From positions 1 to 64,000 of the forward strand of contig NZ_FTOQ01000002.1 of assembly GCF_900156805.1 (NCBI RefSeq): a stretch of 64,000 bases of DNA. Reading direction: 5' to 3'. Numbering within the stretch: position 1 is the first letter of the stretch; every line of letters begins with the position of its first letter. This DNA comes from Roseivivax lentus (GTDB lineage: Bacteria > Pseudomonadota > Alphaproteobacteria > Rhodobacterales > Rhodobacteraceae). The notes under the pieces are model-generated. The model was not told the origin of the DNA. It worked only from the letters and a program-made list of their open reading frames with translations, and made no database searches. This document shows, in pieces, positions 15,004 through 31,928 of the stretch. The position numbers were made by a program, and so were the translations under genes.

Positions 15004-15020
15004 TGCCTGTCCCTTTCCCA

Positions 15021-16265
15021 TCACGCGGCTTTCCGGGCCGCCGCCGCCAGGGCCCGCACCTCCTGCGAGGCTGCGATCGTCTGCGCGACCGCGAAGCCTT
15101 CGAGGTTTCGGGCCACCTTCTCGAAATCGTAAAGATAGTTGACCATGGCGCCTTTCGATTGCTCCAGCCCGTTCTCGGACAGATCCGCGGCCGCATGGAC
15201 CTGGTGCAGAACGGCGCCGTTGCCGAGGTGGAACCGCGCCACGGGATCGCGCGGCAGGCCGTCGGAGCGCTTCACGTCGAACAGGTAATGCGCCGCGAGA
15301 GCGCGCACCCGGTCGGTGTCGTCGGGCTGGACGGCGATGTCCTGATCGGCCAGCCAATGCGCGAAGCCGGGGATCGGCGACAGGGTCACGAAGGTCTCGA
15401 GCGTGGGCAGTTCCGCAGACAGGTCGGCCGCGACCTGCTTGATGAGCGAATGACCGAAGGAAATGCTGGCCAGTCCCTCCTGGCAATTCGAGATCGAGTA
15501 GAACACCGCCGTATCGGCATCCTCGGCCTCGATCATGTCTCGCGATTCCGCCAAAAGCCCCTGGATCGAGCCGGGCACGCCGCGCGTCAGCGCCACTTCG
15601 ACGAAGATCAGTGGCTCGTCCGGCATCACCGGATGGAAGAAGGCGAAACAGCGCCGGTCGGTCGGCTCGAGCCGGCGGCGCAGGTCGTCCCAGCTGTCGA
15701 TCCGGTGGACCGCCTCGTAATCGATGATCTTGTCGAGGATGAAGGCCGGGCTGCCCCAGTTGATCGGGCGCAGGACCAGAAAGCCGCGGTTGAACCAGCT
15801 TGCGAAGAGATGCCGGAAATCGAGGTCGAGCGCGTGCAGCGCATCCTCGTCGCCGCTCAGCCGCAACAGGTCGGCGCGCATGCCCACAAGGGCCGCGGTC
15901 GCCCCGGGCACCTGGTTGAGCCGTCGAATGAGTTCCTGACGCGGCGGCTCGGCAGCCTGCATAAAGCTGCGATAGGTCGCCTTGGTCTGTTCGCGGGCAT
16001 AGGCCTCCAGCGCGCGCTGCACCTCGGACTCGTCAATATTCATGTCGCGGGCGAGATGATGGAAGAAGCCGCGCTTGGCGGCATCGTCCATCTCCGCGTA
16101 GCGCTCCAGCAGGCTGCGCGCGACCGCGAGGCCCGAGGCCTCCACGGAGGCGCCGATCAGTTCGGCGGTCAGCGCCTCGATCGGACGGTCGTCGCGCGAC
16201 CCGGTGCGCGCCAGCCGGTGGCGCCGCTCAAACACCGTCGAGAGAAGATCGGCCAGCAGGGTCAT
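15021..16265 (-). CDS. matA: Malonyl-CoA decarboxylase
   Basis: A 414-residue enzyme that decarboxylates malonyl-CoA to acetyl-CoA. It shows the helical N-terminal region and the GNAT-like catalytic region of the family, including NRGFLVLRPINWGSPAFIL, PDEPLIFVEVALTRGVP and YSISNCQEGLASISFGHSLI. The last of these includes the conserved active-site Ser/His surroundings. The start at 16265 overlaps the matM stop as ATGA. With matB it converts imported malonate to acetyl-CoA. Confidence 0.92.
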   Translation of the reverse strand: MTLLADLLSTVFERRHRLARTGSRDDRPIEALTAELIGASVEASGLAVARSLLERYAEMDDAAKRGFFHHLARDMNIDESEVQRALEAYAREQTKATYRSFMQAAEPPRQELIRRLNQVPGATAALVGMRADLLRLSGDEDALHALDLDFRHLFASWFNRGFLVLRPINWGSPAFILDKIIDYEAVHRIDSWDDLRRRLEPTDRRCFAFFHPVMPDEPLIFVEVALTRGVPGSIQGLLAESRDMIEAEDADTAVFYSISNCQEGLASISFGHSLIKQVAADLSAELPTLETFVTLSPIPGFAHWLADQDIAVQPDDTDRVRALAAHYLFDVKRSDGLPRDPVARFHLGNGAVLHQVHAAADLSENGLEQSKGAMVNYLYDFEKVARNLEGFAVAQTIAASQEVRALAAAARKAA

Positions 16266-17578
16266 ATGGCGGTGCCCATCACGGCGTCCGGCAGCCAGGT
16301 CGCGATACCCGGGAAGAGGCACAGCAGGATGATCGCGATCACCATGCAGGCCACATAGGGCATCGACCCGGCGAGGATCGTCTTCAGCTTGATGTCCGGG
16401 GCGATGCCGTTGATGACGTAAAGGTTGAGCCCGACCGGGGGCGATATGAGCCCGATCTCCATGTTGATGGTCAGGACCACCGCGAACCAGATCGGATCGA
16501 AGCCCGCCGTGGTGATGATCGGCAACAGGATCGGCGCGGCCATGAGGATCACGGCCACCGGCGGCAGGAAGAAGCCCGCGATCAGCAGGAACACGTTGAC
16601 CGCCGCCATCAGCACCCAGGGGTTCACGTCCAGCGTTCCGATCCAGGCGGCGATGGATTGCGTGATGAACAGCGACGACAGCATGTAGCTGAACACGCCC
16701 GCCGCGGCGATGATGAACAGGATCATCACCGATTCCTTCGTGCTGTCGCGCAGCACGACCCAGAGGTCGGCGGGGTTCCAGAGCTTGTAGATCACCATCG
16801 CGATCACGAGGCAGAGAAGTGCGCCCACGGCGGCGGTCTCGGACGGCGTCGCGATCCCGCCATACATCGCGTAGAGCACGCCGAGGATGATCGCGAGAAA
16901 CGGCAGGACGCGGGGCAGGATCTCGACCTTCTCGCGCCAGGAATAGGTGGTGGATGCCAGCACCGCCATGTTGCCCGAGCGCCAGGTGGAATAAAGCGAC
17001 CAGGCCATGAAGAGGCCGACCAGCATCAGGCCGGGGAAGACGCCCGCCAGGAACAGCCGGCCGATCGAGGTCTCGGTGGCGATGCCGTAGACGATCATCG
17101 TGACCGAGGGCGGGATCAGGATGCCCAAGGTGCCGCCCGCCGCGATGGAGCCCGCGGCCACACCGTCGGGATAGCCCCGCTTGCGCATTTCCGGAATGCC
17201 CATCTTGCCGATGGCGGCACAGGTGGCGGGGCTCGATCCGGACATCGCCGAGAAGAGCGCGCAGGCCCCGAGATTAGAGATCACGAGCCCGCCGGGCACG
17301 CGGGTCAGCCAGCGCTCCAGCGCCTCGTAGAGATCCGCGCCCGCGCGGGTCGATGCGATCGACGAGCCCATGATGATGAACATCGGGATCGACAGCAGGG
17401 CGAAATTGTTGAGCTTGCCGAACAGGATCTCCGGCATCAGTTCCAGCGACCGCATGCCGTCGAAGACGATGAGGAAACCGGCCGAGACCACGAGCAGCCC
17501 GAGCGCCACGGAGATGCCCGAGAACAGCACGAGAATGGTGAAGACGGCGACCAATGCGCCAAGAAGCAGCGGATCCAT
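16262..17578 (-). CDS. matM: Malonate TRAP transporter large permease
   Basis: A 438-residue DctM-type membrane protein with the motifs LFSAMSGSSPATCAAIGKMG and LGILIPPSVTMIVYGIAT. The ATG at 17578 overlaps the matQ stop (TGATG), and its stop overlaps the matA start, so the operon is translationally coupled. The gene order matches the matPQMAB malonate operon described in Sinorhizobium meliloti, which is the basis for the substrate call. Confidence 0.88.
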   Translation of the reverse strand: MDPLLLGALVAVFTILVLFSGISVALGLLVVSAGFLIVFDGMRSLELMPEILFGKLNNFALLSIPMFIIMGSSIASTRAGADLYEALERWLTRVPGGLVISNLGACALFSAMSGSSPATCAAIGKMGIPEMRKRGYPDGVAAGSIAAGGTLGILIPPSVTMIVYGIATETSIGRLFLAGVFPGLMLVGLFMAWSLYSTWRSGNMAVLASTTYSWREKVEILPRVLPFLAIILGVLYAMYGGIATPSETAAVGALLCLVIAMVIYKLWNPADLWVVLRDSTKESVMILFIIAAAGVFSYMLSSLFITQSIAAWIGTLDVNPWVLMAAVNVFLLIAGFFLPPVAVILMAAPILLPIITTAGFDPIWFAVVLTINMEIGLISPPVGLNLYVINGIAPDIKLKTILAGSMPYVACMVIAIILLCLFPGIATWLPDAVMGTAI

Positions 17579-18159
17579 CAGACGCCTCCCGTGGTGCGGC
17601 TGTCGAGCCCGCTGAATTCATCGAGGCCGAACGGGTCTTCGATGCGCAGCAGCACGGCGATCAGGTCGGCGACCAGTTGCAGCATCAGAAGCGCGAAACC
17701 GACGGGCAGGGCGAGGTAGGGGATCCACAGCCGCACGCCCCAGACCGTGTCCGACCGCCAGCCCCGCTCCCAGGCGAAGTGCCAGTATTCGAAGCCATAG
17801 AACAGCATCGTGCCGACGATCAGGATCGAGAGCGACATGGTGAACACGAACAGGACGTAGCGCGCCTTCGGGGCCAGCCAGATCGGGATCAGATCGACAT
17901 TCACATGCCCGCGCAGGCGCTGGACGTAAGGCAGCCCCAGCAGGGTGGCCGCGATCACGAGGTAGATGACCGCTTCGGTCTGCCAGACGGTCGATCCGTT
18001 CATCACGAACCGGATGAAGATCATCTGGCAGGTGATCGCCACCGCGGCGACGATCATGCCCGCGGAAATCCATCCCGCCAGCGTGGAAATCGCCGCCACG
18101 AGACGTAGAAACTTGTTGCCGCCCGTCTTTGCGACAGTGATGCCTGGGGTACCCGCCAC
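17578..18159 (-). CDS. matQ: Malonate TRAP transporter small permease
   Basis: A 193-residue DctQ-type protein with four hydrophobic helices and the family segment GSTVWQTEAVIYLVIAATLL. The start is GTG at 18159, supported by AGGAGA six bases upstream. It lies between the binding protein and large permease genes and is coupled to matM. Function follows from position and family. Confidence 0.87.
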   Translation of the reverse strand: MAGTPGITVAKTGGNKFLRLVAAISTLAGWISAGMIVAAVAITCQMIFIRFVMNGSTVWQTEAVIYLVIAATLLGLPYVQRLRGHVNVDLIPIWLAPKARYVLFVFTMSLSILIVGTMLFYGFEYWHFAWERGWRSDTVWGVRLWIPYLALPVGFALLMLQLVADLIAVLLRIEDPFGLDEFSGLDSRTTGGV

Positions 18160-18218
18160 GATGGTCTCCTGATCCCGGAACGTGAAGGGGCGGCGTCATC
18201 GCCGCCCCGGTGCATCGG

Positions 18219-19208
18219 TCAGTCGACCGAAAGTGCGAGATCGAGCAGCTCCTGACCGCCGGGGGTCTCTTCGACGAAGGCCTTGTAGGAGGTCTCCTGC
18301 GCCAGCGCGCGCCACGCGTTGAAATCGGCCTCGGTCATCTCGGCGATCTCGACGCCGGCCTGCTCGAAGACCTCGCGGCTGGCCGCGTCTTCCTTCTTGG
18401 CCTCTTCGAGATAGAAGGCCTCGGCCTTGGCCGCGCCGTCCAGCAGCGCCTGCTGCTGCTCGGGCGACAGGTCGTCGAAGGTGGATTTGTTCATCAAGAG
18501 CGGCTGGTACATGAACCACAGCGCGTATTCGCCCGCCGGGGTGTAGCAGGCGACCTGCTCGTAGATGCGGTAGCTGACAAAGGACGAGGACGAGGTGTTG
18601 GCCGCGTCCAGAACGCCGGTCTGCATGGCGTTGTAGATTTCCGACGACGACATCGACGCGATGGAGGCACCGGCGCCCGCCAGCATCTGCTCGAACGCCT
18701 TGCCCGCCGCGCGGGTCTGCTTGCCGCTCATGTCCTCGGGTCCGGTGATGCACTCGTCCTTGCCGGCAAAGCCCCCGGCGAGATAGCCGTGCACGAGGAC
18801 CATCACGTCATCTTCGGCCATCTTCGCCTCGATCGCTTCCATGAACGGGCTTTCGTTCAGGCGCGCGGCATGGTCGTGGTTCTTCACGAGGCCGGGCATC
18901 AGCGTGAGGTTGTAGGCGGGCTGCTGGCCACCGGCATAGGACAGCGGCAGAACCGTCATGTCGAGCTGGCCGCGCGACAGCGGGGTGTATTGCTCGCGCG
19001 CCTTGAACAGCGATTGCGTCGGAAAAATCCGGATCTCGAGGCCCACATCCGCCGCGGCGACTTCATCCGCCACGATCTTGGCGACCTGGTGGCGCACGTC
19101 GCTGTCGGACCATTGATGGGACAGCCGCAGCTCCTGGGCGAAAAGCGCGGTCGTGGATGCGGCCATCATGGCCGCGGCGGCGATTGCCGCGGTGAAATTG
19201 ATCTTCAT
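18219..19208 (-). CDS. matP: Malonate TRAP substrate-binding protein
   Basis: A 329-residue DctP-like periplasmic protein. The signal peptide is about residues 1-24 (MKINFTAAIAAAAMMAASTT, cleavage near LFA-Q). Mature features include LSHQWSDSDVRHQVAK, IFPTQSLFKAREQY and MSSSEIYNAMQTGVLDAANT. It is shorter at the canonical Arg segment than classical DctP and belongs to a subgroup seen next to malonate genes. GGGAGGA precedes ATG 19208. It is first in the mat operon and divergent from matR. Confidence 0.87.
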   Translation of the reverse strand: MKINFTAAIAAAAMMAASTTALFAQELRLSHQWSDSDVRHQVAKIVADEVAAADVGLEIRIFPTQSLFKAREQYTPLSRGQLDMTVLPLSYAGGQQPAYNLTLMPGLVKNHDHAARLNESPFMEAIEAKMAEDDVMVLVHGYLAGGFAGKDECITGPEDMSGKQTRAAGKAFEQMLAGAGASIASMSSSEIYNAMQTGVLDAANTSSSSFVSYRIYEQVACYTPAGEYALWFMYQPLLMNKSTFDDLSPEQQQALLDGAAKAEAFYLEEAKKEDAASREVFEQAGVEIAEMTEADFNAWRALAQETSYKAFVEETPGGQELLDLALSVD

Positions 19209-19282
19209 GAGTTCCTCCCTCGGTGGCGCCGACTCGGCACCGGTGACGATTAATTGCCGTCGGGTGAACAATAGTCAAGTTT

Positions 19283-19310
19283 TTGTATACAAGGTCTACG
19301 CACGTGTATA
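19283..19310. promoter_or_regulatory. Candidate MatR operator in the matP-matR gap
   Basis: The perfect palindrome TTGTATACAA (19283-19292) is followed 13 bases later by a half-site-like TGTATA (19305-19310). MatR of Rhizobium leguminosarum bv. trifolii is known to bind a site with a TTGTATACA core, which this matches. The position between divergent matP and matR suits repression or autoregulation. Confidence 0.7.
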
Positions 19311-19373
19311 AAAAGTCCCGCGATACAGGTGCTTCGGGACGGGCGCTTTGGGAAGGGCGAAGTGGGAAACGGA

Positions 19374-20030
19374 ATGTCCAAGACGCATCCGAACGTCATC
19401 GCGGACCATCTCGAGGAAATGATCCTCGAGGGGACATTCGCCGATAACGACCGGCTGGACGAAGTGCAGCTTGCCAAACGGTTTTCGGTCTCCCGGACAC
19501 CGATCCGCGAGGCCCTCCAGCGGCTCACGCAGGCCGGTTTGGCCGAGCGGATCCCCCGGCGCGGCGTCTTCGTGCGCCAGCCCGGCGCCATCGAGCTGCT
19601 GGAGATGTTCGAGGTGATGGCGGAACTCGAAGCCGCCGCCGCCAGGTTCGCCGCCCAGCGGATCTCGGACGCCGCGCTGAAGGAGCTCGTGGACACCAAC
19701 GAGGAATGCGAGCGGGCCCTGCAGGACAAGGATGCCGACCGGTATTACCGCGCCAACGAGCGCTTCCACCAGATCATCTATGCCCAATCCGGCAACAGTT
19801 TCCTCGAGGCCGAGGCGACCCGGCTGCATCGCCGTCTGAAACCCTTCCGGCGCCTGCAATTGAGGCTGCGCGGACGGTTGCGGCAATCCATGTCCGAGCA
19901 TGAGAGCATCCTCAAGGCGCTGAGCGATGGCGATCCCGAAACCGCCGCAAACGTCACGCGCCAGCATATCGCCGTGCAGGGCGACAAGTTCCACCACCTG
20001 ATCGCGACGCTGAAGACGGCGGCGGAATAG
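19374..20030 (+). CDS. matR: GntR/FCD regulator of malonate genes
   Basis: A 218-residue regulator. The winged helix-turn-helix is at about residues 10-70 (LAKRFSVSRTPIREALQRL, then AERIPRRGVFVR) and the FCD domain follows, with YYRANERFHQIIYAQSGN and a later MSEHESILKAL metal-site pattern. An upstream GTG at 19329 would add 15 residues; I prefer ATG 19374. Divergent position beside matP and the TTGTATACAA site indicate control of the mat operon, with malonate or malonyl-CoA as the likely effector. Confidence 0.85.
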   Translation: MSKTHPNVIADHLEEMILEGTFADNDRLDEVQLAKRFSVSRTPIREALQRLTQAGLAERIPRRGVFVRQPGAIELLEMFEVMAELEAAAARFAAQRISDAALKELVDTNEECERALQDKDADRYYRANERFHQIIYAQSGNSFLEAEATRLHRRLKPFRRLQLRLRGRLRQSMSEHESILKALSDGDPETAANVTRQHIAVQGDKFHHLIATLKTAAE

Positions 20031-20256: not shown

Positions 20257-20841
20257 ATGACCGCGTCCCTGACCATCGTCGTTGTGGAGCCCGATCCCGC
20301 CCGCGCGCGGCTGATCGTCGATGCGCTGCGCGAGGCGGGGGATTTCGACATCCACGTGGTCGCCGAACGCGCCGCCCTCGCGCGCCAGATCGCGCTGCAC
20401 AATCCCGACGTGGTGCTGGTCGATGTGGCCGATCCCTCCCGCGATATCCTCGAGGAACTGGCGCTGGCCTCCGCGCCGCTCGACCGGCCCGTGGCGCTTT
20501 TCGTGGATCGCAGCGACGAGGGGCTCTCCACCGCGGCGATCGAGGCGGGGCTCTCGGCCTACGTGGTCGACGGTCTGACGCAGGCGCGGGTGAAGCCGGT
20601 GCTCGATGCCGCGATCGCGCGGTTCCACATGGTCCAGCGGATGCGCACCGAGCTTGCGGAGACCAAGCGCGCGCTCGAGGAACGCAAGGTGATCGACCGC
20701 GCCAAGGGCCTGCTGATCCGGGCGCGCGGGATCACCGAGGAAGAGGCTTACGCGCTGCTGCGGCGCACTGCGATGGACAAGAACCGCCGCATCGCCGACG
20801 TGGCCGAGGCGCTGGTCACCGCATCGGACCTGCTGAAATGA
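20257..20841 (+). CDS. nasT: ANTAR-domain nitrate antiterminator NasT
   Basis: A 194-residue response-regulator-like protein. It has a receiver-like domain (residues 1-115, TIVVVEPDPARARLIVDAL, with Asp in VVLVDVADPS) and a C-terminal ANTAR RNA-binding domain (about 135-190, ERKVIDRAKGLLIRARGITE then EEAYALLRRTAMDKNRRI). NasT prevents termination in nitrate-assimilation leaders and is sequestered by NasS when nitrate is absent. GGAGG precedes ATG 20257; the TTG at 20221 is less likely. It overlaps nasS by ATGA. A matching two-hairpin leader with terminator lies at 22148-22254. Confidence 0.92.
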   Translation: MTASLTIVVVEPDPARARLIVDALREAGDFDIHVVAERAALARQIALHNPDVVLVDVADPSRDILEELALASAPLDRPVALFVDRSDEGLSTAAIEAGLSAYVVDGLTQARVKPVLDAAIARFHMVQRMRTELAETKRALEERKVIDRAKGLLIRARGITEEEAYALLRRTAMDKNRRIADVAEALVTASDLLK

Positions 20842-22013
20842 GGACGGTTCCGATCCCGGTCGGATACGTGCCGCTGGTCGATGCCGCGCCGCTGATCGCG
20901 GCACAGGAGATGGGCTTCGCCGCCGCCGAGGGCATCGCGCTCGATCTGCACCGCTCGCCCTCCTGGTCGGCGCTGCGCGATGCGCTGTCGGTGGGGCAGG
21001 TGGCCGCGGCCCACATGCTGGCCCCGATCCCGGTGGCCAACGCGCTGGGTCTGGGGGGCGGCAGCGTCGGGTTCGAGGCCGTGTCGGTGCTGTCGGTCAA
21101 CGGCACGATGATCGGCATCAGCGATGCGCTGGCCGAACGGCTCGACGCGGCGGGGCACGACTACGATTTCGCCGATGCCGGTGCGGCGGGTCGCGCCCTG
21201 ATCGCGGCCGCGCCGAAGCCCCTGCGGATCGGCGTGCCCTTTCCCTTCGCGATGCACGCGGAGCTCGTCTTCTACTGGCTCTCGGCGCTGGGCCTGCCCA
21301 GCCCGCAAAGCCTGACGGTGCGGACCCTGCCGCCGCCGCTGATGGCCGACGCCATGCGCGCGGGCGAGATCGACGCCTTCTGCGTGGGCGAGCCATGGGC
21401 CTCGCAGGCGGTGTTCGAAAAGGTGGCGACGCTGCTTCTGCCCGGCGCCGCGATCTGGTCCTTCGCGCCGGAAAAGGTGCTGGCCATGCGCACCGGCTGG
21501 GCCGAGAGCGAACCCGACCTCTCCGCCCGGCTGATCCGGGCCGTCTGGCGCGCGGGCCAGTGGCTGGAGGATGACGACGCGCGGTCGCTGGCGGCCGAAC
21601 TGCTGTCGCGGCCGCAATATCTGGGCGTCGGCGCGGACCTGATCGAGCGCGCGATGAAGGGCCACTTCACCATCCGCGCCTCGGGCGAGGAACGTTCGGT
21701 GGCGCGCTTCGTGGTCTTCCACGAGGGGGTCGCGCATTTTCCCTGGCGCAGTCAGGCGGCCTGGATCGGCAGCCAGCTTGCCGGGCGGATGGGCCTCGAC
21801 CGGGCCGGTGCGGCGCAGAAGGCCGCGCGCATCTTCCGCAGCGACCTGCACCGCGCGGCCCTCGCGCCCCTGGGCGTCAACCTGCCCGCGGCCTCCGCCC
21901 GGGTCGAGGGCGCGCTGGCCGGGGATTCGCCCTCCGCGGGCGCGCGCGGACCGCTGCGGCTGGGCCGCAACCGCTTCTTCGATGGCGGGCTCTTCGATCC
22001 GGAGATTCACTGA
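20838..22013 (+). CDS. nasS: Nitrate sensor NasS (NrtA-like, cytoplasmic)
   Basis: A 391-residue protein homologous to the nitrate-binding NrtA/CmpA family but without a signal peptide (it begins MRTVPIPVGYVPLVDAAPLI). The family motifs LRIGVPFPFAMHAELVFYWL, DAFCVGEPWASQAVFEK and LSRPQYLGVGADLIERAM are present. By analogy with Paracoccus and Azotobacter NasS it binds nitrate or nitrite in the cytoplasm and releases NasT. The start overlaps the nasT stop (ATGA), ensuring a fixed ratio. The order nasT-nasS followed by assimilation genes is as in Paracoccus denitrificans. Confidence 0.9.
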   Translation: MRTVPIPVGYVPLVDAAPLIAAQEMGFAAAEGIALDLHRSPSWSALRDALSVGQVAAAHMLAPIPVANALGLGGGSVGFEAVSVLSVNGTMIGISDALAERLDAAGHDYDFADAGAAGRALIAAAPKPLRIGVPFPFAMHAELVFYWLSALGLPSPQSLTVRTLPPPLMADAMRAGEIDAFCVGEPWASQAVFEKVATLLLPGAAIWSFAPEKVLAMRTGWAESEPDLSARLIRAVWRAGQWLEDDDARSLAAELLSRPQYLGVGADLIERAMKGHFTIRASGEERSVARFVVFHEGVAHFPWRSQAAWIGSQLAGRMGLDRAGAAQKAARIFRSDLHRAALAPLGVNLPAASARVEGALAGDSPSAGARGPLRLGRNRFFDGGLFDPEIH

Positions 22014-22147
22014 CGCCCGTTTTTTGACCGAAGGGCGCGGCCTCGGCGCAAATTCAGCCGAAAGTTTGTGCTGCATTGCGGCGAGGGCGAAAAAATGCGG
22101 GCCCGGGTCTTGCAGGACCGCGTGCCCTGATGAACGCTGACGGGGCT

Positions 22148-22213
22148 GGCAGGCAACGGTGCTCGCCACGACACGCATTCTCGAACGACCGGGATTCTGA
22201 GCAAAGCCGCTCG
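22148..22213 (+). promoter_or_regulatory. ANTAR-target leader RNA: two hexaloop hairpins
   Basis: In the leader of nrtA two small stem-loops have the ANTAR substrate signature of a six-base loop with A at position 1 and G at position 4. The first is GGCAGGC (22148-22154), loop AACGGT (22155-22160), GCTCGCC (22161-22167); the core GCAACGGTGCTC is very like published motif cores. The second is GAGC (22199-22202), loop AAAGCC (22203-22208), GCTC (22209-22212). The second hairpin uses bases that also form the 5' arm of the terminator at 22203, so the two structures exclude each other. This is the expected NasT antitermination switch. Confidence 0.82.
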
Positions 22214-22254
22214 ACCCTCTGCCCCTTCCGGGCGGAGCGCGTCAGCGGCTTTTT
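22203..22254 (+). terminator. Regulated intrinsic terminator in the nrtA leader
   Basis: AAAGCCGCT (22203-22211) pairs with AGCGGCTTT (22244-22252) and is followed by a T-run to 22254. An inner stem CTCTGCCC/GGGCGGAG (22217-22237) extends it. It lies about 45 bases before the nrtA start. The 5' arm overlaps the second ANTAR-type hairpin, so binding by NasT would favour read-through into the nrt-nas operon. Confidence 0.85.
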
Positions 22255-22298: not shown

Positions 22299-23666
22299 AT
22301 GAAGCAATTTCTCTTTGGCCTCGTGGCCACAACCGCACTGGCCAGCCCCGCCTTCGCGCAGATGCTGGAGCTGGAAAAGGACGAGCTGACCTTCGGCTTT
22401 ATCAAGCTGACCGACATGGCGCCGCTCGCCGTGGCCTATGAAAACGGGTATTTCCTCGACGAGGGCCTCTTCGTCACGCTCGAGGCCCAGGCCAACTGGA
22501 AGGTGCTGCTCGACGGGGTGGTCGACGGCACGCTCGACGGCGCGCACATGCTCGCGGGCCAGCCGCTTGCGGCCACGATCGGCTACGGCACCGAGGCGCA
22601 TATCGTCACGCCCTTCTCGATGGATCTCAACGGCAACGGCATCACCGTGTCGAACGAGGTCTGGGACATGATGAAGCCCAACATTCCCACCATGGAGGAT
22701 GGCCGCCCGCAGCATCCGATCTCGGCCGAGGCGCTGGTCCCGGTGGTCGAAAGCTTCCGCGCCAGGGGCGAATCCTTCAACATGGGCATGGTCTTCCCGG
22801 TCTCGACCCACAATTACGAGCTGCGCTACTGGCTGGCAGCGGGCGGGCTCAACCCGGGCTATTACGGGCAGGGCGACGCCACCGGGCAGATCAATGCCGA
22901 TGTGTTCCTGTCCGTCACGCCGCCGCCGCAGATGCCCGCCACGCTCGAGGCCGGCACGATCCACGGCTATTGCGTGGGCGAGCCCTGGAACCAGCAGGCG
23001 GTCTTCAAGGGGATCGGCGTGCCGGTCATCACCGATTACCAGATCTGGAAGAACAATCCCGAAAAGGTCTTCGGCCTGACCGCCGCCTTCACGCAGGAAA
23101 ACCCCAACACCACGCTCGCGGTGACCAAGGCGCTCATACGCGCCGCGATCTGGCTCGACGAGAACGACAACGCCAACCGCGAAGCGGCGGTCGAGATCCT
23201 GTCACGGCCCGAATATGTCGGCGCCGATTACGAGGTGATCGCCAATTCGATGACCGGCACCTTCGAATACGAGAAGGGCGATGTGCGCGAGGTGCCCGAC
23301 TTCAACGTCTTCTTCCGCTACAACGCGACCTATCCGTTCTACTCGGACGCGGTCTGGTACCTCACCCAGATGCGCCGCTGGGGCCAGATCGGCGAGGCCA
23401 AGCCCGACAGCTGGTACGACGAGGTCGCGAAATCGGTGTACAAACCCGAGATCTACCTCGAGGCCGCGCGCCTTCTGGTCGACGAGGGTCTCGCCGATGC
23501 GGCCGATTTCCCCTGGGACAGCGATGGCTACAAGGCCGCCACGCCCGCCGAGGATGTCATCGACGGCATCGGCTATGACGGCCGCCAGCCCAACGCCTAT
23601 CTCGACAGCCTCGAGATCGGCCTGAAGGGCGCGCAGAAGGTCGTGGGCAACGACATCCAGGGCTGA
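22299..23666 (+). CDS. nrtA: Nitrate ABC transporter substrate-binding protein
   Basis: A 455-residue periplasmic nitrate/nitrite-binding protein. The Sec signal peptide is [20 protein letters not shown]. Family features include [57 protein letters not shown] and [16 protein letters not shown]. Start at 22299 is preferred over 22287 because it begins the signal peptide and has GGGAA just upstream. It is a paralogue of nasS, which shares these motifs but lacks the export signal. It is first in the long operon nrtA-nrtB-nrtCD-nasB-nasG-nasC. Confidence 0.93.
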
Positions 23667-23781: not shown

Positions 23782-24864
23782 ATGACCGCCGTCGACCCCT
23801 CCACGCTCGATCAAGAGGCCCGCGACGCCCGCCGGGCCGCGCGCTTCACCCGCATCAACAAGGCCGATGCCTGGCTCACCGTGCTGGGCCTCGGCTGGCT
23901 CACGCCGCTGTTGCGCGCCGCCGCGGGGGACAATCCCCGCGCCCAGGGCCGGGAGATCTGGCGCCTCCTCGGCGTGCCGCTCCTGGCGATCCTTGGCTTC
24001 CTTCTGGCCTGGGGCGTGTTGGCGCCGCAGGTCCAGACCTCGCTCGGCGCGGTGCCGGGGCCCGCGCAGGTCTGGCAGGAGGCGGTGGGCCTGCACGAAG
24101 ACGCCGTGCGCACCGGCGAGAGCCGCGAGAAGTTCGAGACCATGCTCGAGGCGCGCAACCAGCGCCTGATCGAGGCGGGCCGCGGCGACGAGGTCAAGAC
24201 CGTCGCCTATACCGGGGCGCCGTCCTACTACCAGCAGATCCGCACCTCGATCGGCACGGTCTTCTTCGGCTTTCTCGTCGCCACATTGGTCGCGGTGCCG
24301 CTGGGGATCATGGCGGGGCTCTCGCCCACGGCCAATGCGGCGCTGAACCCGATCATCCAGATCTTCAAGCCGGTCAGCCCGCTGGCCTGGCTGCCCATCG
24401 TCACGATGATCGTCTCGGCGGTCTACGTGACCAATGATGGCCTCTTCGAGAAGTCGTTCCTGGTCTCGGCGATCACCGTCACGCTCTGTTCGCTCTGGCC
24501 GACGCTGATCAACACCGCCCTGGGCGTGGCCTCGATCGACAAGGACCTGGTCAACGTCTCCAAGGTGCTCAAGATGACGACGCGGACCAAGATCCTGAAG
24601 CTCGTTCTGCCCTCGGCCCTGCCGCTGATCTTCACCGGGCTGCGCCTGTCGCTCGGCGTGGGCTGGATGGTGCTGATCGCCGCGGAGATGCTGGCGCAGA
24701 ACCCGGGCCTCGGCAAGTTCGTCTGGGACGAGTTCCAGAACGGCTCCTCGACCTCGCTCGCGCGGATCATGGTCGCAGTCTTCACCATCGGCATCATCGG
24801 CTTCCTGCTCGATCGGCTGATGTACGCGGTCCAGGCCGCCTTCACCTTCTCGAACCAGCGGTGA
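23782..24864 (+). CDS. nrtB: Nitrate ABC transporter permease
   Basis: A 360-residue inner-membrane permease of the NrtB/SsuC type. A hydrophobic segment at about 60-80 is followed by a periplasmic loop (90-145) and the MetI-like domain. The EAA-type loop is around [20 protein letters not shown], and the sequence [19 protein letters not shown] is typical of nitrate permeases. GGAGA precedes ATG 23782. The stop overlaps the GTG start of the ATPase gene (GTGA). Confidence 0.92.
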
Positions 24865-26543
24865 GCGGCATGAGCATCCTGTCCTTCGACAACGTCTCAA
24901 AGGGATACGGCGAGACGCCGGTCCTGAACGGCATCGACCTCGCGGTGGCCGAGCGCGAATTCCTGGTGATCCTCGGCTTCTCGGGCACCGGCAAGACCAC
25001 GCTGATCAACCTCATGGCTGGGCTCGAGACGCCGAGCGCGGGCCGCGTCCTCTTCAAGGGCAAGCCCGTCGCCGGGCCGGGGCCCGAACGCGGCGTGATC
25101 TTCCAGAACTATTCGCTGATGCCGTGGCTGACCGTGGCGGGCAATGTGCGCCTCGCGGTCGACACCGTCTTTCCGGAGCTTTCGGGCCGGGAAAGGACCG
25201 AGAAGGTCGCGCATTACGTCGAGATGGTGGGGCTCAGCCACGCCGCGTCCCGGCGACCGGCGGAATTGTCGGGCGGCATGCGCCAGCGCGTCAACGTCGC
25301 CCGCGCGCTGGCCATGGATCCGGAGATGCTGCTCCTCGACGAGCCGCTCTCGGCGCTCGATGCGCTGACCCGCGCCAACCTCGCCGACGAGATCGAGCGC
25401 ATCTGGGAGGCCGACCGCAAGACCTGCGTGCTCATCACCAACGATGTGGACGAGGCGCTGATCCTCGCCGACCGGATCGTGGCGCTGAACCCCGACGGCA
25501 CGCTGGGCGCGGAATTTCCCGTCGCGATCCCGCGGCCGCGCGACCGCACCGCGATGAACCACGACGCCGCCTTCAAGGCGCTGCGCGCCGAGGTCACGAC
25601 CTACCTGATGGATGTGGGCATCGCCGCCAAGATCGAGGAGACGCGCCGCCTGCCCAAGGTCACCCCGATCCACGGCCTGCCCGCCGCGCAGGCGAAATCC
25701 GCCAAGGGCATGATCGACACGCGGTTCCTCGATTTCTCGGAACTCCACAAGGTCTACCCGACGCCCAAGGGGCCGCTGACGGTTGTCGAGGATTTCGACC
25801 TCAAGATCGACAAGGGGGAATTCGTCTCTCTCATCGGCCATTCGGGCTGCGGCAAATCCACCGTGCTGACCATGGCGGCGGGGCTCAACGACATCTCGCA
25901 GGGCGCGATCAAGCTCGACGGCCGCCACGTGGAGGGCGCCGATCCCGAACGCGCGGTCGTGTTCCAGTCGCCCTCGCTCTTTCCCTGGCTCACCGCGCGG
26001 GAAAACGTCGCCGTCGGCGTGGACCGGGTCTACCCGCAGGCCAGCCGCGCCGAGCGGCAGGAGGTGGTGGAGTATTACCTCGAACGGGTGGGCCTCGCCC
26101 ATGCGATGAACAAGCCCGCGCAGGATCTGTCGAACGGCATGAAGCAGCGCGTGGGCATCGCCCGGGCCTTCGCGCTCAGCCCCAAGCTACTGCTTCTCGA
26201 CGAACCCTTCGGCATGCTCGACAGCCTGACGCGCTGGGAATTGCAGGAAGTCCTGATGGAGGTCTGGGCCGCGACCCGCGTCACCGCGATCTGCGTCACC
26301 CATGACGTGGACGAGGCGATCCTTCTGGCCGACCGCGTGGTGATGATGACCAACGGTCCGCGCGCCACCATCGGCCGGATCATCGACGTGGACCTGCCGC
26401 GCCCGCGCAGCCGCAAGGCGCTGCTCGAACATCCCGATTACTACAATTACCGCCAGGACGTGCTCGATTTCCTGCAGGAATACGAGCATGGCGCGACGCC
26501 CGCGCCCCGCCCGGCGGTGCAAAAGCCCATCGCTGCGGAGTGA
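24861..26543 (+). CDS. nrtCD: Nitrate ABC transporter ATPase, two fused nucleotide-binding domains
   Basis: A 560-residue protein with two complete ABC ATPase domains, equivalent to NrtC and NrtD in one chain. Domain 1 (about 5-235) has Walker [10 protein letters not shown] (39-47), signature LSGGMRQRV and Walker B MLLLDEP; its switch position reads ITNDVDEA, with Asn194 instead of the usual His. Domain 2 (about 290-520) has Walker [10 protein letters not shown], signature LSNGMKQRV and a normal VTHDVDEA (His481). The NBDs are therefore asymmetric. The start is GTG at 24861, with an ATG at 24870 as alternative. The symbol nrtCD marks the fusion and is not a standard name. Confidence 0.9.
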
Positions 26544-26548
26544 GACGA

Positions 26549-28984
26549 ATGCCCAAATCCCTTATCGTGATCGGGGCCGGCATGGCCTCTGGCCGTCTGC
26601 TCGAACACCTGTTCGAGGCGGGCGGGGACTGGCAGGTCACGCTGTTCAACGCCGAACCGCGCGGCTGCTACAACCGCATCATGCTGTCGCCGGTCCTGTC
26701 GGGCGAAAAGACCTATGACGAGATCGTCACCCATGACGACGCCTGGTACGCCGCCCATGGTGTGACCTGCCGCTTCGGCGAAAAGGTCGCCGCCATCGAC
26801 CGCGCCGCCCGGACCGTGACCTCCGAGACGGGTGAGGTCCTGGCCTATGACAAGCTGGTGATCGCCACCGGATCGCAGCCCTTCATCATCCCGATGCCGG
26901 GCCACGACCTCGACGGGGTGATCGCCTATCGCGACCTCGACGACACCGAGCGGATGATGGCGCTCGCCCCCGGCGCGCGCGCCGTGGTGATCGGCGGCGG
27001 GCTTCTGGGCCTCGAGGCCGCGGCGGGCCTGCATGCCCGCGGCGTCGACACGACCGTGGTGCACCTGATGGGCCACCTGATGGAGCGGCAGCTCGACGCG
27101 GCGGCGGGATACCTTCTGCGCAAGGAACTGGTGGATCGCGGCATCAAGGTGCGCTGTTCGACCAATTCGAGGCAGATCCTCGGCCAGGACGGACAGGTCC
27201 GCGCGCTGCAGCTCGAGGACGGCGAGGAACTGCCCTGCGATCTTCTGGTCATGGCCGTGGGCATCCGGCCCAACGTCGCGCTGGCCGCGGCGGCGGGGCT
27301 CGCCGTGGGGCGCGGCATCCATGTGGACGACCGGCTCTGCACCTCCGACGCCGATATCTTCGCCCTCGGCGAATGCGTCGAACATGAAGGCGCGCTTTTC
27401 GGGCTGGTGGCGCCGCTTTACGACCAGGCCAAGGTCCTCGCGGCGGTGCTGGCGGGCGAGGACGACGCGGCCTTCCGGCAGAAGGAGCTCTCCACCAAGC
27501 TCAAGGTCACCGGCTGCGATCTGTTCTCGGCGGGCGATTTCGCCGAGGGCCCGGGCCGCGAGGACATCGTCTTCCGCGACCCCGCCCGCGGCGTCTACAA
27601 GCGCCTCGTCCTCGAGAAGGACCGCCTGATCGGCGCGGTGATGTACGGCGACACGGCCGATGCCAACTGGTTCTTCGGGCTGATCCGGGAGGGTCGCGAC
27701 GTCTCGGACATGCGCGAGATGCTGATCTTCGGGCCCGCCTATCAGGGAGGGACCGGCGCGGACCCTTTGGCCGCCGTTGCAGCCTTGCCGGCTGACGCAG
27801 AAATCTGCGGCTGCAACGGCGTCTGCAAGGGCCGCATCGAGGCGGCGATCGCCGAGGGCGCGGTCGATCTGGGCGGCGTGCGCGCCGTGACCAAGGCCTC
27901 GGCCTCCTGCGGGACCTGCACCGGGCTGGTGGAACAGGTGCTCGCCGCCACGCTGGGCGATGCCTTCGCCCTGCCGGTGGCGCAGCCCGTCTGCGGTTGC
28001 ACCGACCTCACCCACGAGGATGTCCGCCGCCTCATCAAGAGCCATCCGCTGAAAAGCCAGGAGGCCGTCTGGCAGGAGCTGGGCTGGAAGACCCGCAACG
28101 GCTGCCATGTCTGCCGCCCGGCGATCAATTACTACCTGCTGGCGGATTGGCCGCTGGATTATCGCGACGATCCGCAATCGCGCTTCGTCAACGAACGCAA
28201 CCACGCCAATATCCAGAAGGACGGCACCTATTCGGTCATGCCGCGCATGTGGGGCGGGATGACCAATGCCGCCGAGCTGCGCGCCATCGCCGATGCCGCC
28301 GACAAGTACGGCGCCGCAATCAAGGTCACCGGCGGTCAGCGCATCGACCTTCTGGGCGTGCGGAAGCAGGACCTGCCCGCGATCTGGGCGGATATCAACG
28401 CCGCCGGCATGGTCTCGGGCCATGCCTATACCAAGGGTTTGCGCACGGTGAAGACCTGTGTCGGCACCGATTGGTGCCGCTTCGGCACGCAGGACAGCAC
28501 CGGGCTCGGCATCACGCTGGAAAAGCGGCTCTGGGGGTCCTGGACGCCGCACAAGGTCAAGCTCGGCGTGTCGGGCTGCCCGCGCAACTGCGCCGAGGCG
28601 ACTTGCAAGGATGTGGGCGTGATCTGCGTCGACAGCGGCTTCCAGATCGGGGTCTCGGGTGCCGCGGGCATGGACGTGAAGGAGGTCGAACGCCTGCACG
28701 ATGCCGCCACCGAGGACGAGACCGTCGAATGGATCGTGGCCTTCCTGCAGCTTTACCGCGAGCACGCGAAATATCTCGACCGGGCCTACAAGTGGACCGC
28801 GAAGGTGGGGCTCGACTGGGTGCGCGCGCAGCTTGCCGACGATGCGACGCGGCAGGCGCTCGTCGCGCGCTTCGACCTGAGCCAGAGCATCTACCAGAAA
28901 GACCCCTGGGCGGAGCGCGCGACGCCCGAGGCCGCGCGCCGGTTCGCGCCCATGGCCGACCTGACCCTGGAGGCCGCGGAATGA
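26549..28984 (+). CDS. nasB: NAD(P)H nitrite reductase large subunit
   Basis: An 811-residue assimilatory nitrite reductase (NirB type) that reduces nitrite to ammonium. The FAD/NAD(P)H domain starts with VIGAGMASGRLLEHLF, and a second Rossmann motif is VVIGGGLLGLEAAAGL (about 148). Two BFD-like [2Fe-2S] regions follow (CGCNGVCKG with CGTC near 418-455, then CGC..CHVC near 485-530). The siroheme/[4Fe-4S] half has CVGTDWC (about 636) and GCPRNC (about 676), the four cluster cysteines. Start ATG 26549 follows GGAG. It overlaps nasG by ATGA. It is named nasB after the Paracoccus operon; nirB is a synonym. Confidence 0.94.
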   Translation: MPKSLIVIGAGMASGRLLEHLFEAGGDWQVTLFNAEPRGCYNRIMLSPVLSGEKTYDEIVTHDDAWYAAHGVTCRFGEKVAAIDRAARTVTSETGEVLAYDKLVIATGSQPFIIPMPGHDLDGVIAYRDLDDTERMMALAPGARAVVIGGGLLGLEAAAGLHARGVDTTVVHLMGHLMERQLDAAAGYLLRKELVDRGIKVRCSTNSRQILGQDGQVRALQLEDGEELPCDLLVMAVGIRPNVALAAAAGLAVGRGIHVDDRLCTSDADIFALGECVEHEGALFGLVAPLYDQAKVLAAVLAGEDDAAFRQKELSTKLKVTGCDLFSAGDFAEGPGREDIVFRDPARGVYKRLVLEKDRLIGAVMYGDTADANWFFGLIREGRDVSDMREMLIFGPAYQGGTGADPLAAVAALPADAEICGCNGVCKGRIEAAIAEGAVDLGGVRAVTKASASCGTCTGLVEQVLAATLGDAFALPVAQPVCGCTDLTHEDVRRLIKSHPLKSQEAVWQELGWKTRNGCHVCRPAINYYLLADWPLDYRDDPQSRFVNERNHANIQKDGTYSVMPRMWGGMTNAAELRAIADAADKYGAAIKVTGGQRIDLLGVRKQDLPAIWADINAAGMVSGHAYTKGLRTVKTCVGTDWCRFGTQDSTGLGITLEKRLWGSWTPHKVKLGVSGCPRNCAEATCKDVGVICVDSGFQIGVSGAAGMDVKEVERLHDAATEDETVEWIVAFLQLYREHAKYLDRAYKWTAKVGLDWVRAQLADDATRQALVARFDLSQSIYQKDPWAERATPEAARRFAPMADLTLEAAE

Positions 28985-29313
28985 GCTGGATCGACATCGG
29001 CGCCCTCGACGACATACCCCTGCGCGGTGCGCGGATCGTCAAGACGCGGATGGGCTGCGTGGCCCTTTTCCGCACCGATCCCGAGGAGGTCTTCGCCACC
29101 TCGGACCGCTGTCCGCACCGGGGCGGTCCGCTGTCCGAAGGGATCGTGCATGACCGCAAGGTGACCTGCCCGCTGCACAACTGGGTCTTCTCGCTCGAGA
29201 CCGGCGCGGCGCAGGGGGCCGACGAGGGCGTGATCGCGACCTTCCCGGTCCGCGTCGAGGCCGGGCGCATCCTCATCGACGCCGCGGCACTCGGACGGCG
29301 GAGCGCGGCGTGA
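28981..29313 (+). CDS. nasG: Nitrite reductase small subunit, Rieske ferredoxin
   Basis: A 110-residue Rieske [2Fe-2S] protein (NirD type). The ligand motifs CPHRGGP and CPLHNW are both intact. In Paracoccus denitrificans NasG is required for electron transfer between the NADH-dependent nitrite reductase and nitrate reductase. Start and stop overlap its neighbours (ATGA at both ends with nasB and GTGA with nasC), giving coupled translation. It is longer at neither end than typical NirD. Confidence 0.92.
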   Translation: MSWIDIGALDDIPLRGARIVKTRMGCVALFRTDPEEVFATSDRCPHRGGPLSEGIVHDRKVTCPLHNWVFSLETGAAQGADEGVIATFPVRVEAGRILIDAAALGRRSAA

Positions 29314-31928
29314 CGGCCCCGGTCCGCTCCACCTGTCCCTATTGCGGGGTGGGCTGCGGGGTCCTGCTGTCGCCCGAGGCCGGAGGCGGCATCACGGTCG
29401 CGGGCGATCCGGATCATCCGGCCAACCGGGGCAGGCTCTGCTCGAAGGGCGCGGCTTTGGGCGAGACCGTGGGGCTCGCGGGCAGGCTTCTGCAGCCGCA
29501 GATCGGCGGGCAGGCCACCGATTGGGACACCGCGATGGAGCTGGTGGCGGGCAAGTTCCGCGCCGCCATCGCCGAACACGGCCCGGACAGCGTGGCCTTC
29601 TACGTCTCGGGCCAGATGCTGACCGAGGATTACTACGTCGCCAACAAGCTGATGAAGGGCTTCATCGGCTCGGCCAATATCGACACCAATTCGCGGCTTT
29701 GCATGGCCTCGACCGTGGCCGGGCACCGCCGCGCCTTCGGCACCGACACGGTGCCGGGCACCTACGCGGATCTGGACGCGGCGGACCTGATCGTGCTCGT
29801 CGGCTCGAACCTCGCCTGGTGCCACCCGGTCCTGCACCAGCGCGTGCTTGCCGCGAAGGCCCGTCGCAGCACGAAGATCGTCGTCGTTGATCCGCGCCGC
29901 ACCGCGACCTGCGACGGGGCCGATCTGCACCTGCCGCTGGCCATCGGCTCTGACGTGGCGCTCTTCAGCCACCTGCTGGTGGCGCTCTACGAGGGCGGCG
30001 CGCTCGACGCGGCATATCTGCGCCATGTCGACGGCTTCGCGCAAACGCTGGAAGCGGCGATGGGCGGCACGCTCGATCCCACGGGGCTCGATCCCGCGCA
30101 GGTCGCGCAGTTCTGCCGGATGTGGCTCGCGCATGAAAAGGTCGTGACGATCTTCAGCCAGGGCGTGAACCAGTCCGCCTCGGGCTCCGACAAGGTCAAC
30201 GCGATCCTCAATTGCCACCTTGCCAGCGGGCGGATCGGCAGGCCCGGCATGGGGCCGTTTTCCGTCACCGGCCAGCCCAACGCCATGGGCGGGCGCGAGG
30301 TCGGGGGGCTTGCCAACATGCTGGCCTGCCACATGAGCCTCGAGGACCCGGCCCACCGCGCCGCGGTCCAGACCTTCTGGGACGCGCCCGCCATGCCCGA
30401 AGCGCCGGGCCTGAAGGCCGTCGAGATGTTCGAGGCGGTGGCCGACGGGCGCATCAAGGCGCTCTGGGTGATGCATTCCAACCCCGCCGTGACCCTGCCC
30501 GAAGCCGATGCGGTGCGCGCGGCGATCCGCGCCAGCAGCTTCGCCGTGGTCTCCGACATCACCGCCGAGACGGATACGGCGCGGCTCGCCGACGTGCTTC
30601 TGCCCGCCAGCGCCTGGTCCGAGAAAAGCGGCACGGTGACCAATTCCGACCGCACCATTTCGCGCCAGCGCGCGGTGCGTCGCGCCCCCGGTGCCGCGCG
30701 CCCCGATTGGTGGCAGATGGCCGAGCTGGGCCGCCGCCTCGGCTGGCGCATGGCGTTCGACTACGCCCATCCCGTCGAGATCTTCCGCGAACACGCCGCC
30801 CTGTCGGGGATCGCCGGGGGCTTCGGGCTCGATTTCGACATCTCGGGCCTCGCCGGCATTTCCACGCAGGATTATGACGATTTCGCCCCGCAACGCTGGC
30901 CCATCGCCGCGCGCCAGGGCGGCCGGTTCTTCGCCGACGGGCGGTCGTTTCACGCCGATGGCAAGATGCGGATGATCCCGGTGCGCCACCGCCCGCCCGC
31001 CGCGCGCCTTGCGCCGCGCTTTCCGTTCCGCCTGAACACCGGGCGCATCCGCGACCAATGGCACACGATGACGCGCACCGCGCTCTCGCCGCGCCTGTCC
31101 GCGCATCTGGCCGAACCCTTCGTCGAGCTGCATCCCGCGGATGCCGCCGCGCTGGGCATCGCCCCAGACACGCTTGTCGAAGTCACGAGCCCCACCGGCC
31201 GCGCGATCCTGCGTGCGCTGCTCACCGACCGGGTGCAGTCGGGCGAGGTCTTCGCGCCGATGCACTGGACCGGCGAGACCGCGCCCTCGGCCCGGATCGA
31301 CGCGCTGGTGGCGGCGGTCACGGACCCGATCTCGGGCCAGCCCGAAAGCAAGGCCTCGGTCTGCGCGCTGCGCCCGTTCGGGGCCGCGTTCTACGGCTTC
31401 GCGGTGGCGTCCGGGCCGATTGCGCCCGATACGGAGTACTGGGCCCGGGCGCGCAGCCAGACCGGCTGGCGGGTGGAGCTTGCGGGTGCTGCGCCGCTGG
31501 CCGACTGGGAAGGCTGGGCGCGCGGGCTTTTCGGTTTGCCTGAGGCCGCGGCCCAAAGCCTGATCGACGCGGATCGCGGCATCGCCAGGATCGCATTTCA
31601 GGACGACGCGCACCGCCTGCTCGCGGCGCTCTTCGTGGGGCCCGAACCGCTGGCGCTGCAACGCGAGCACCTCGCGACCCGGCCCGGCACGGAGCCCGGG
31701 CAGGTGCTGACCGGGCGCGCGCCTGCGCATGTGCCCGATCCGGGCCCGACGCTTTGTTCGTGCTTCAACGTCGGCGTCAACACGATCCTGACCGCGATCG
31801 AGGCGCGCGGCCTGATGGATGTCGCGGCGGTGGGTGCTGCCCTGTCTGCGGGCACCAATTGCGGCTCCTGCCGGCCCGAGATCGCGGCCCTTCTGGGCGC
31901 GGCGATGCGCCGGGAGGCCGCCGAATGA
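29310..31928 (+). CDS. nasC: Assimilatory nitrate reductase catalytic subunit
   Basis: An 872-residue molybdopterin oxidoreductase that reduces nitrate to nitrite in the cytoplasm. The N-terminal [4Fe-4S] site is Cys9, Cys12 and Cys16 (CPYCGVGC) with Cys44 (LCSKG). MGD-binding segments include GSANIDTNSRLCMAS, DPRRTATCDGADLHLP and GQPNAMGGREVGGLANML. A C-terminal BFD-type [2Fe-2S] domain (about 816-855) has CSCFNVG and CGSCRPE, as in NasC/NasA enzymes that take electrons from a ferredoxin or NADH partner. The start is GTG at 29310 overlapping the nasG stop. Confidence 0.94.
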   Translation: MTAPVRSTCPYCGVGCGVLLSPEAGGGITVAGDPDHPANRGRLCSKGAALGETVGLAGRLLQPQIGGQATDWDTAMELVAGKFRAAIAEHGPDSVAFYVSGQMLTEDYYVANKLMKGFIGSANIDTNSRLCMASTVAGHRRAFGTDTVPGTYADLDAADLIVLVGSNLAWCHPVLHQRVLAAKARRSTKIVVVDPRRTATCDGADLHLPLAIGSDVALFSHLLVALYEGGALDAAYLRHVDGFAQTLEAAMGGTLDPTGLDPAQVAQFCRMWLAHEKVVTIFSQGVNQSASGSDKVNAILNCHLASGRIGRPGMGPFSVTGQPNAMGGREVGGLANMLACHMSLEDPAHRAAVQTFWDAPAMPEAPGLKAVEMFEAVADGRIKALWVMHSNPAVTLPEADAVRAAIRASSFAVVSDITAETDTARLADVLLPASAWSEKSGTVTNSDRTISRQRAVRRAPGAARPDWWQMAELGRRLGWRMAFDYAHPVEIFREHAALSGIAGGFGLDFDISGLAGISTQDYDDFAPQRWPIAARQGGRFFADGRSFHADGKMRMIPVRHRPPAARLAPRFPFRLNTGRIRDQWHTMTRTALSPRLSAHLAEPFVELHPADAAALGIAPDTLVEVTSPTGRAILRALLTDRVQSGEVFAPMHWTGETAPSARIDALVAAVTDPISGQPESKASVCALRPFGAAFYGFAVASGPIAPDTEYWARARSQTGWRVELAGAAPLADWEGWARGLFGLPEAAAQSLIDADRGIARIAFQDDAHRLLAALFVGPEPLALQREHLATRPGTEPGQVLTGRAPAHVPDPGPTLCSCFNVGVNTILTAIEARGLMDVAAVGAALSAGTNCGSCRPEIAALLGAAMRREAAE

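Follow-up and report, generated by a model that had tools for sequence, protein, structure and literature searches.

In Paracoccus denitrificans, NasT has been reported to bind the leader of nasA, and growth on nitrate requires one hairpin of this leader, HI (PMC3795266, PMC5424462). The NasS-NasT complex of Paracoccus comes apart on nitrate or nitrite (PMC3795266). The spacing of the hairpins recognized by ANTAR proteins has been documented for EutV, the natural linkers of which measure 5-12 nt; antitermination was drastically reduced with a linker of 14 nt and absent when 20 nt were added (PMC3369931, PMC8934654). A dimer of EutV touches only a single hexaloop at any moment (PMC8934654), and linkers of 2-25 nt have been accepted for the ANTAR RNAs of actinobacteria (PMC8164766). 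Our statements on published systems refer throughout to the available portions of the cited papers.

To compare these systems with a further locus, we analyzed a stretch of 64,000 nucleotides of Roseivivax lentus DNA (the window), in which all features described below lie on the forward strand. A preceding sequence-only reading had placed nasT, encoding an ANTAR protein, and nasS directly upstream of a leader, and the Pfam matches of both products bore this out. The product of nasT (20257-20841) consists of an atypical receiver and an ANTAR RNA-binding domain (Pfam ANTAR, 1.1e-21). The ANTAR domain scored 76.8 bits, above the cut-off, and was the only ANTAR match in the genome; the receiver domain scored 23 bits, below its cut-off of 30.2. 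NasT could be aligned to EutV and NasR and has the MDKNxR stretch of NasR, and in the alignment the lysine of the EutV motif YLVKP is replaced by D (YVVDG in NasT). At the seven RNA-contact positions of EutV (K143, K147, R168, M172, N173, R175 and R177, with an offset of two residues between chain and paper numbering) NasT has K, R, R, M, D, N and R, which is the EutV residue at four of them (K143, R168, M172 and R177). Its closest named relatives among the matches listed come from Palleronia species and an uncultured member of the Rhodobacteraceae, with 79-81% identity. The first 4 nt of nasS (20838-22013) are shared with nasT. This gene encodes an NrtA-like nitrate/nitrite sensor (Pfam NMT1_2, 3.8e-59), the kin of which include solved NrtA structures and nitrate-transport ATP-binding chains, and no export signal peptide was visible when its N-terminus was judged by eye. 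The two proteins have the features of a NasS-NasT pair, namely a receiver-like NasT with an ANTAR domain and an NrtA-like NasS with no visible signal.

Downstream of the leader, nrtA (22299-23666) encodes a nitrate-binding protein (Pfam NMT1_2, 1e-91) with a signal-like stretch at its N-terminus, as judged by eye. It is followed by nrtB for an ABC permease (23782-24864; TIGR01183, 157 bits, under its cut-off of 209), a gene for a fused NrtC/D ATP-binding protein (24861-26543; TIGR01184, 4.2e-179, in two stretches), nirB/nasB for the large subunit of nitrite reductase (26540-28984; TIGR02374, 1e-256), nirD for its small subunit (28978-29313; TIGR02378, 2.4e-29), a gene for a nitrate-reductase-type molybdoprotein with a C-terminal BFD-like [2Fe-2S] domain (29310-31928; family matches under the equivalog cut-offs), a TrpD/YbiB-like (PRK09071) gene (31922-32911; NF006564, 6.9e-98), and cysG for siroheme synthase (32899-34365; NF007922, 2.3e-144). 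The TrpD/YbiB-like gene, located here between the nitrate reductase gene and cysG, also occurs in the nitrate operons of five other loci (L032, L034, L041, L042, L049). On the other flank of nasT (13486-20030), translated open reading frames correspond to an acyl-CoA ligase, a malonyl-CoA-decarboxylase-like protein, a TRAP-type transporter and a GntR-type regulator; together they resemble a cluster for the use of malonate or a dicarboxylate.

The leader extends over 285 nt from the nasS stop at 22013 to the nrtA start at 22299 and contains three hairpins and a terminator. The ANTAR-type hairpin P1 (22147-22168) has the stem TGGCAGGC/GCTCGCCA with one A.C mismatch and carries the loop AACGGT at 22155-22160, while the antiterminator hairpin P2 (22198-22213, stem TGAGC/GCTCG) carries the loop AAAGCC at 22203-22208. 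Both are hexaloops with A at position 1 and G at position 4 (A1/G4), found where the sequence-only reading had seen them, and both are closed by a C-G pair. Between them lies a middle hairpin, Pm (22179-22194), with the stem TCTCG/CGGGA and the A1/G4 loop AACGAC, which is closed by a G-C pair. The intrinsic terminator (22203-22254) ends in five U (22250-22254) and excludes P2. Its 5' arm, AAAGCCGCT at 22203-22211, is made up of the P2 loop and part of the P2 3' arm and has its partner at 22244-22252, so that the overlap between the terminator and the second hairpin that had been claimed is indeed present. With its A1/G4 hexaloops, the C-G closing pairs of P1 and P2, and a P2 that overlaps a terminator, the leader shares these features with ANTAR targets. 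Measured from loop to loop, the spacing is 19 nt between Pm and P2 and 48 nt between P1 and P2. The gap of 29 nt between P1 and P2 is outside both reported ranges (5-12 and 2-25 nt), the gap of 10 nt between P1 and Pm is within both, and the gap of 3 nt between Pm and P2 is within 2-25 nt but below 5 nt.

Folding of the nasS-nrtA leader, which had been suggested as a check, gave a z-score of -2.62, with 2 out of 200 shuffles as good. The segment from P1 to the U-run had a z-score of -2.00 (7/200 shuffles as good), and the segment from P1 to P2, which lacks the 3' half of the terminator, had a z-score of +0.28 (118/200). Pm is part of both predicted folds, the one that includes the terminator and the one that does not, and the minimum-energy fold of the P1-P2 segment does not contain P1. 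Since this segment folds no better than its shuffles, energy alone is no proof of P1, which is supported by the comparison across relatives and not by fold energy. Just upstream of P1, a -35-like element (TTGCAG, 22110-22115) was recognized by eye, and many relatives have, also by eye, CTTG followed after about 17 nt by a GCATAA-like sequence; the promoter upstream of P1 would thus be sigma-70-like, with a weak -10 element in the window. A sigma-54 promoter at this place was considered and dropped, because the upstream stretches of the relatives, judged by eye, better fit a sigma-70-like -35 element. A simple promoter and terminator scan of the leader with strict rules (loop of 3-8, 9/12 promoter bases) found nothing, which we did not count against the switch. 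Rfam at gathering thresholds returned 0 matches, the weight of which hinges on Rfam having an ANTAR family.

The comparison with relatives was based on 98 loci, drawn from 17 genomes close to the window, from the 80 best among at least 580 NasT matches in a set of genome contigs, and from the window itself. The search for P1 and P2 demanded A1, G4 and three contiguous loop-adjacent pairs, and the P1 candidate with the most pairs was kept; because they were demanded, A1, G4 and the loop-adjacent pairs are no evidence, and the share of paired positions is biased upward. Features outside these demands are the closing C-G pair of P1 (72/73 leaders), the second loop A (72/73 in P1 and 67/73 in P2), and compensatory changes in the stems. 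Both P1 and P2 were found in 78 leaders, three of which (L043, L045, L070) have a doubtful P1 and were left out of the statistics, leaving 75; from the alignment A2, which has 73 rows, L034 and L052 were left out as well. In five further leaders (L040, L046, L057, L083, L086) the same search found P2 and no P1. The covariation that the sequence-only reading had proposed to look for was evident in both stems and was strong in P1. Six of the eight P1 pairs show changes in both partners, in 149 cells (a number reached by 0/500 shuffles), and 82.0% of the cells are paired compared to 32.9-44.2% when the stem is slid, which beats every slid control. In P2, three of the five pairs change on both sides and 95.3% are paired. 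A wider alignment of 89 matches, which was fitted to the model and is therefore biased towards it, gave 7/8 pairs for P1 and 3/5 for P2.

We also scanned the leaders for a loop or 3' arm with a perfect complement of at least 5 nt further downstream, located at a T-run. An A1/G4 hexaloop hairpin with such an overlapping terminator arm was present in 73 of 93 leaders, compared to 1-3 of 93 in five dinucleotide-shuffled sets of these 93 leaders. Arms of at least 7 nt were found in 55 leaders and in none of the shuffles. The arm itself varies (AAAGCCGCT, AATGCTGC, AAGGCCGC, GCCACC, AACGCT), and its partner varies to match. The scan had no hit in the other 20 leaders, some of which look by eye like mismatched versions of the same arrangement. 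A covariance model, R1, was trained on 73 leaders including that of the window, and in the whole genome it found the site with an E-value of 5.5e-12, the next match having 0.22. Because 73 of the 82 leaders matching R1 had also trained it, we built a held-out model, R3, from 38 leaders that include neither the window nor its relatives L032, L049, L050 and L051. With 50.7 bits (E-value of 1.6e-11 in the window and 1.2e-9 in the whole genome), the site was the one significant match of R3 in the genome, the next match having an E-value of 2.66. Eleven of the 93 leaders had no R1 match at E ≤ 0.01. Six of them (L083, L086, L093, L096, L101, L117) show hairpin arrays by eye, three (L043, L045, L046) have a P2-like hairpin and a terminator, and in two (L048, L119) nothing was recognizable by eye as the element.

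The occurrence of the element was compared to that of NasT in 248 genomes of the family (R1 at E ≤ 0.01, NasT at E ≤ 1e-30). The element was present in 88 genomes and NasT in 102, with both in 85 (Fisher p-value of about 8e-45, which overstates independence because the genomes are related). Three genomes had the element only, with weak scores (E-values of 0.002-0.007), and 17 of the 102 NasT genomes had NasT only at the strict filter. Some of these 17 are filter misses, because in at least one of them (G031) a separate search detected the element in L038 with an E-value of 1.3e-4. Relatives with nasT and no conserved hairpins had been named beforehand as evidence against the switch: the 17 genomes are candidates for this, in part due to the filter, and 85 genomes have both. 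The second matches in G013 and G070, the third match in G103, and the sole matches in G156, G227 and G265 are weak and were discarded as probable chance matches. The present analyses establish the genes, the hairpins, their conservation and their co-occurrence with NasT.

Where a leader had nasS and its downstream DNA was long enough, we recorded the next gene among a queried set that excludes MFS carriers. It was nrtA in 85 of 93 leaders (in 7 of these only 31-34% identical to NrtA of the window), nitrite reductase in 7 and none in 1, counts that describe the Rhodobacterales neighbourhood and not all bacteria. The ABC transporter that had been pointed out as a special feature of this nasTS locus is present, but it represents the usual layout here and is no notable exception. 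Outside the Rhodobacterales, NasT-linked elements also precede nrtA in L247, L253, L260 and L266. Other genes intervene in a few leaders (L046, L099); in L099, about 5 kb separate nasS from nrtA and the element (14498-14562) adjoins nrtA. Extra copies of the element were found before cysG or cobA in seven loci (L173, L174, L176, L177, L178, L097 at 7683-7740, and L181 at 8442-8500), each with a hairpin at the place of Pm as judged by eye. Based on these second copies before siroheme genes, we propose that NasT probably also controls the siroheme supply for nitrite reductase in the genomes concerned. In L182, an element (5041-5109, E-value of 1.1e-5) lies before the gene for a NirB-like FAD protein and nasT is on another contig; the protein after the NirB-like one had no NCBIfam match at 1e-20. 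In four loci of the Paracoccus and Falsirhodobacter types (L087, L093, L096, L117), hairpin arrays were seen by eye, and a T-run terminator that overlaps the last hairpin did not turn up in the terminator scan.

The linker between P1 and P2 measures 21-41 nt with a median of 30 nt (78 leaders, including the three with a doubtful P1). The mean best-hairpin score of 75 linkers was 12.95, compared to 9.31 +/- 0.32 for dinucleotide-shuffled linkers (the highest of 200 sets reached 10.07) and 9.33 for a control stretch just upstream of P1; single linkers were mostly not significant (34/75 at p ≤ 0.1). Folding of whole linkers gave a mean z-score of -1.2, and at least 4 bp formed in 77 of 78 linkers and also in 90% of the shuffles, which makes this energy test a weak one because shuffles fold nearly as often. 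The centre of Pm lies 20 nt from the centre of the P2 loop in 39/75 leaders and 18-24 nt from it in 70/75. Covariation in Pm is modest because its stem is nearly invariant (CCC/GGG). On alignment A2, 89.8% of the Pm cells are paired compared to 89.3% one column off, and the score was reached by 83/500 shuffles. On alignment A5, the register of which was chosen after the count one column off had proved not significant, 20 cells change on both sides compared to 9.6 +/- 2.9 (0/500 shuffles), the covariation score was reached by 1/500 shuffles, and all slides were worse. The most conserved column of the Pm loop is the one corresponding to ANTAR position 4, which is G in 65/73 leaders; position 1 is A in 38/73, and the hexaloop-closing pair forms in 28/73. 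The best-scoring loops range from 4 to 8 nt, and C-G-closed A1/G4 hexaloops occur in L105, L113, L088, L083 and L232. A paired A1/G4 hexaloop is present at Pm in 14/73 leaders, the window included, so that Pm does not qualify as a canonical third site for NasT in all relatives. In L056 and L061, such a hexaloop occurs at another place of the linker. The claim of a complete ANTAR switch before nrtA holds for the type of element, as indicated by the covariation and the co-occurrence with NasT, but the two-hairpin drawing on which it was based omits the conserved Pm.

Strict scans, performed with no shuffle control, covered 30 loci of other alphaproteobacteria (of which L241 has no NasT) and 38 loci from further families and classes, where 15 elements were found in 13 of the 38 loci. 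Ordinary two-hairpin leaders elsewhere have their loops 18-27 nt apart; these are L227, L228, L250, L260, L269, L273 and L281, the second sites of L223, L046 and L232, and the first sites of L256 and L258. The first hairpin of L269, with the loop AACGAC, lies 19 nt before a P2 with the loop AAAGCC; both the loops and the distance are those of Pm and P2 in the window. This points to Pm rather than P1 as the equivalent of the classical first hairpin. Three hexaloops are present in L045, L253 and L266 and at the first site of L232. By eye, a middle hairpin accompanies a long-spaced P1 in L226, L230 and L247, and also before nirB (second site of L256, L261). A long-spaced first hairpin is also present in L225, L236, L239, L257, the second site of L258, and L284, where the finding extends to this hairpin alone.

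Based on the present data, the leader is very probably a NasT-controlled transcription-attenuation switch acting on the three-hairpin target P1-Pm-P2; we infer the nitrate response, the binding of NasT, the read-through and the role of each hairpin from homology and from the work on Paracoccus. By default, the polymerase would make the leader, P1 and Pm would fold, and the terminator would capture the P2 sequence, leaving the nrt-nas operon off. Binding of nitrate or nitrite by NasS would free NasT, the ANTAR domain of which would then hold the hexaloop hairpins and stabilise P2. With P2 stabilised, the terminator would not form, and transcription would read through into nrtABC(D)-nirBD-nitrate reductase-cysG. 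As an extra and well-conserved upstream hairpin, P1 would most likely serve as the first docking site, and Pm would shorten the gap between P1 and P2.

A plain two-hairpin ANTAR element, in which NasT would bind P1 and P2 and the intervening 29 nt would be a passive linker, would agree with the conservation of the P1 and P2 loops beyond the demanded positions (the second A) and with the finding that HI is essential in P. denitrificans (PMC5424462), if HI corresponds to P1 as its position suggests. We nevertheless consider this unlikely, since linkers of 21-41 nt are at odds with the natural 5-12 nt of EutV, its poor activity at 14 nt and inactivity with 20 nt added, as well as with the 2-25 nt of actinobacterial RNAs, and since the linkers contain, more than expected by chance, a hairpin whose distance from P2 hardly varies. 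Considerably more plausible, if somewhat short of an even chance, is the view that NasT does not hold Pm itself, which would act solely as a spacer in the structure or as a hairpin at which transcription pauses long enough for NasT to bind. The variable size of the Pm loop and the low frequency of its hexaloop-closing pair are in line with such a role, as is the end of Pm 3 nt before P2 in the window, which would be a suitable place for a pause. Retention of G at ANTAR position 4 in 65/73 leaders and the C-G-closed A1/G4 Pm hexaloops of five leaders argue against it. Short hairpins are common in GC-rich DNA, and the P1-P2 segment has no advantage over its shuffles in folding, so a plain terminator downstream of nasS, in which the hexaloops arose by chance and NasT plays no part, also has to be weighed; the covariation of P1, the presence of both element and NasT in 85 genomes, the copies before cysG, and the one significant site in the genome make this extremely improbable.

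The NasT-controlled three-hairpin switch can be compared to several described systems. Like the two-hairpin ANTAR RNAs of EutV (eutP), NasR (nasF) and AmiR (amiE), it has A1/G4 hexaloops with C-G closing pairs and a last hairpin that overlaps the terminator (PMC3369931, PMC8934654, PMC7496416), but the window adds a hairpin in between and its outer loops are 48 nt apart. In Bradyrhizobium diazoefficiens, the NasT regulon is likewise subject to antitermination via leader hairpins, but the genes affected there include nos and nap (PMC6759348), whereas a single site was found in the present genome. RNAs that are bound by ANTAR proteins and form more than two hairpins have already been published in other settings, since an additional hexaloop is mentioned in EutX (PMC8934654), and three hairpins, similar to the array in the window, were predicted for the PPE1-5' RNA of M. 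tuberculosis, which is bound by PdtaR (PMC8131098). As described in the available portion of that report, the PPE1-5' RNA is trans-acting, sequesters its regulator, and has its hairpins near a start codon, with neither a terminator switch nor NasT.

The closest system is the NasS-NasT-controlled nasA leader of P. denitrificans, which has the same regulators, the same gene order, the same placement of the leader, and hairpins that matter for nitrate induction (PMC3795266, PMC5424462). It differs from the window in preceding the carrier gene nasA instead of the ABC gene nrtA and in having, according to our terminator scan, no T-run terminator overlapping the last hairpin. The available portions of the publications (PMC3795266, PMC5424462) name two hairpins, but the sequence contains a middle one as well, with the loop AATGAT. 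In the fold of L087, position -138 is the end of the extended P1 and position -92 that of the extended third hairpin, compared to published positions of 137 for HI and 91 for HII; HI would thus be P1 and HII the third hairpin, within one base by position. The middle hairpin of Paracoccus (from -136) appears to have been left out of the published mutagenesis, as far as the available portions indicate. The three-hairpin layout is important because EutV was seen to engage hexaloops singly and a longer linker between its hairpins abolished antitermination (PMC8934654). We tentatively propose a distinct class of three-hairpin NasT leaders in many proteobacteria, in which NasT might be relayed from P1 to Pm, by passing or bridging, and on to P2, with Pm as the counterpart of the classical first hairpin, omitted in two-hairpin readings, that of Paracoccus among them. 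A natural and widespread array with outer hairpins about 50 nt apart and a conserved middle one makes this relay model directly testable, and searches for two hairpins that allow only short linkers could overlook or misinterpret leaders of this type. No description of a three-hairpin NasT antitermination leader was recognized in the open-access literature covered by the search. The regulator, the signal and the antitermination logic of this locus are already known, and its three-hairpin NasT leader is, as far as the open-access literature searched shows, an undescribed variant.
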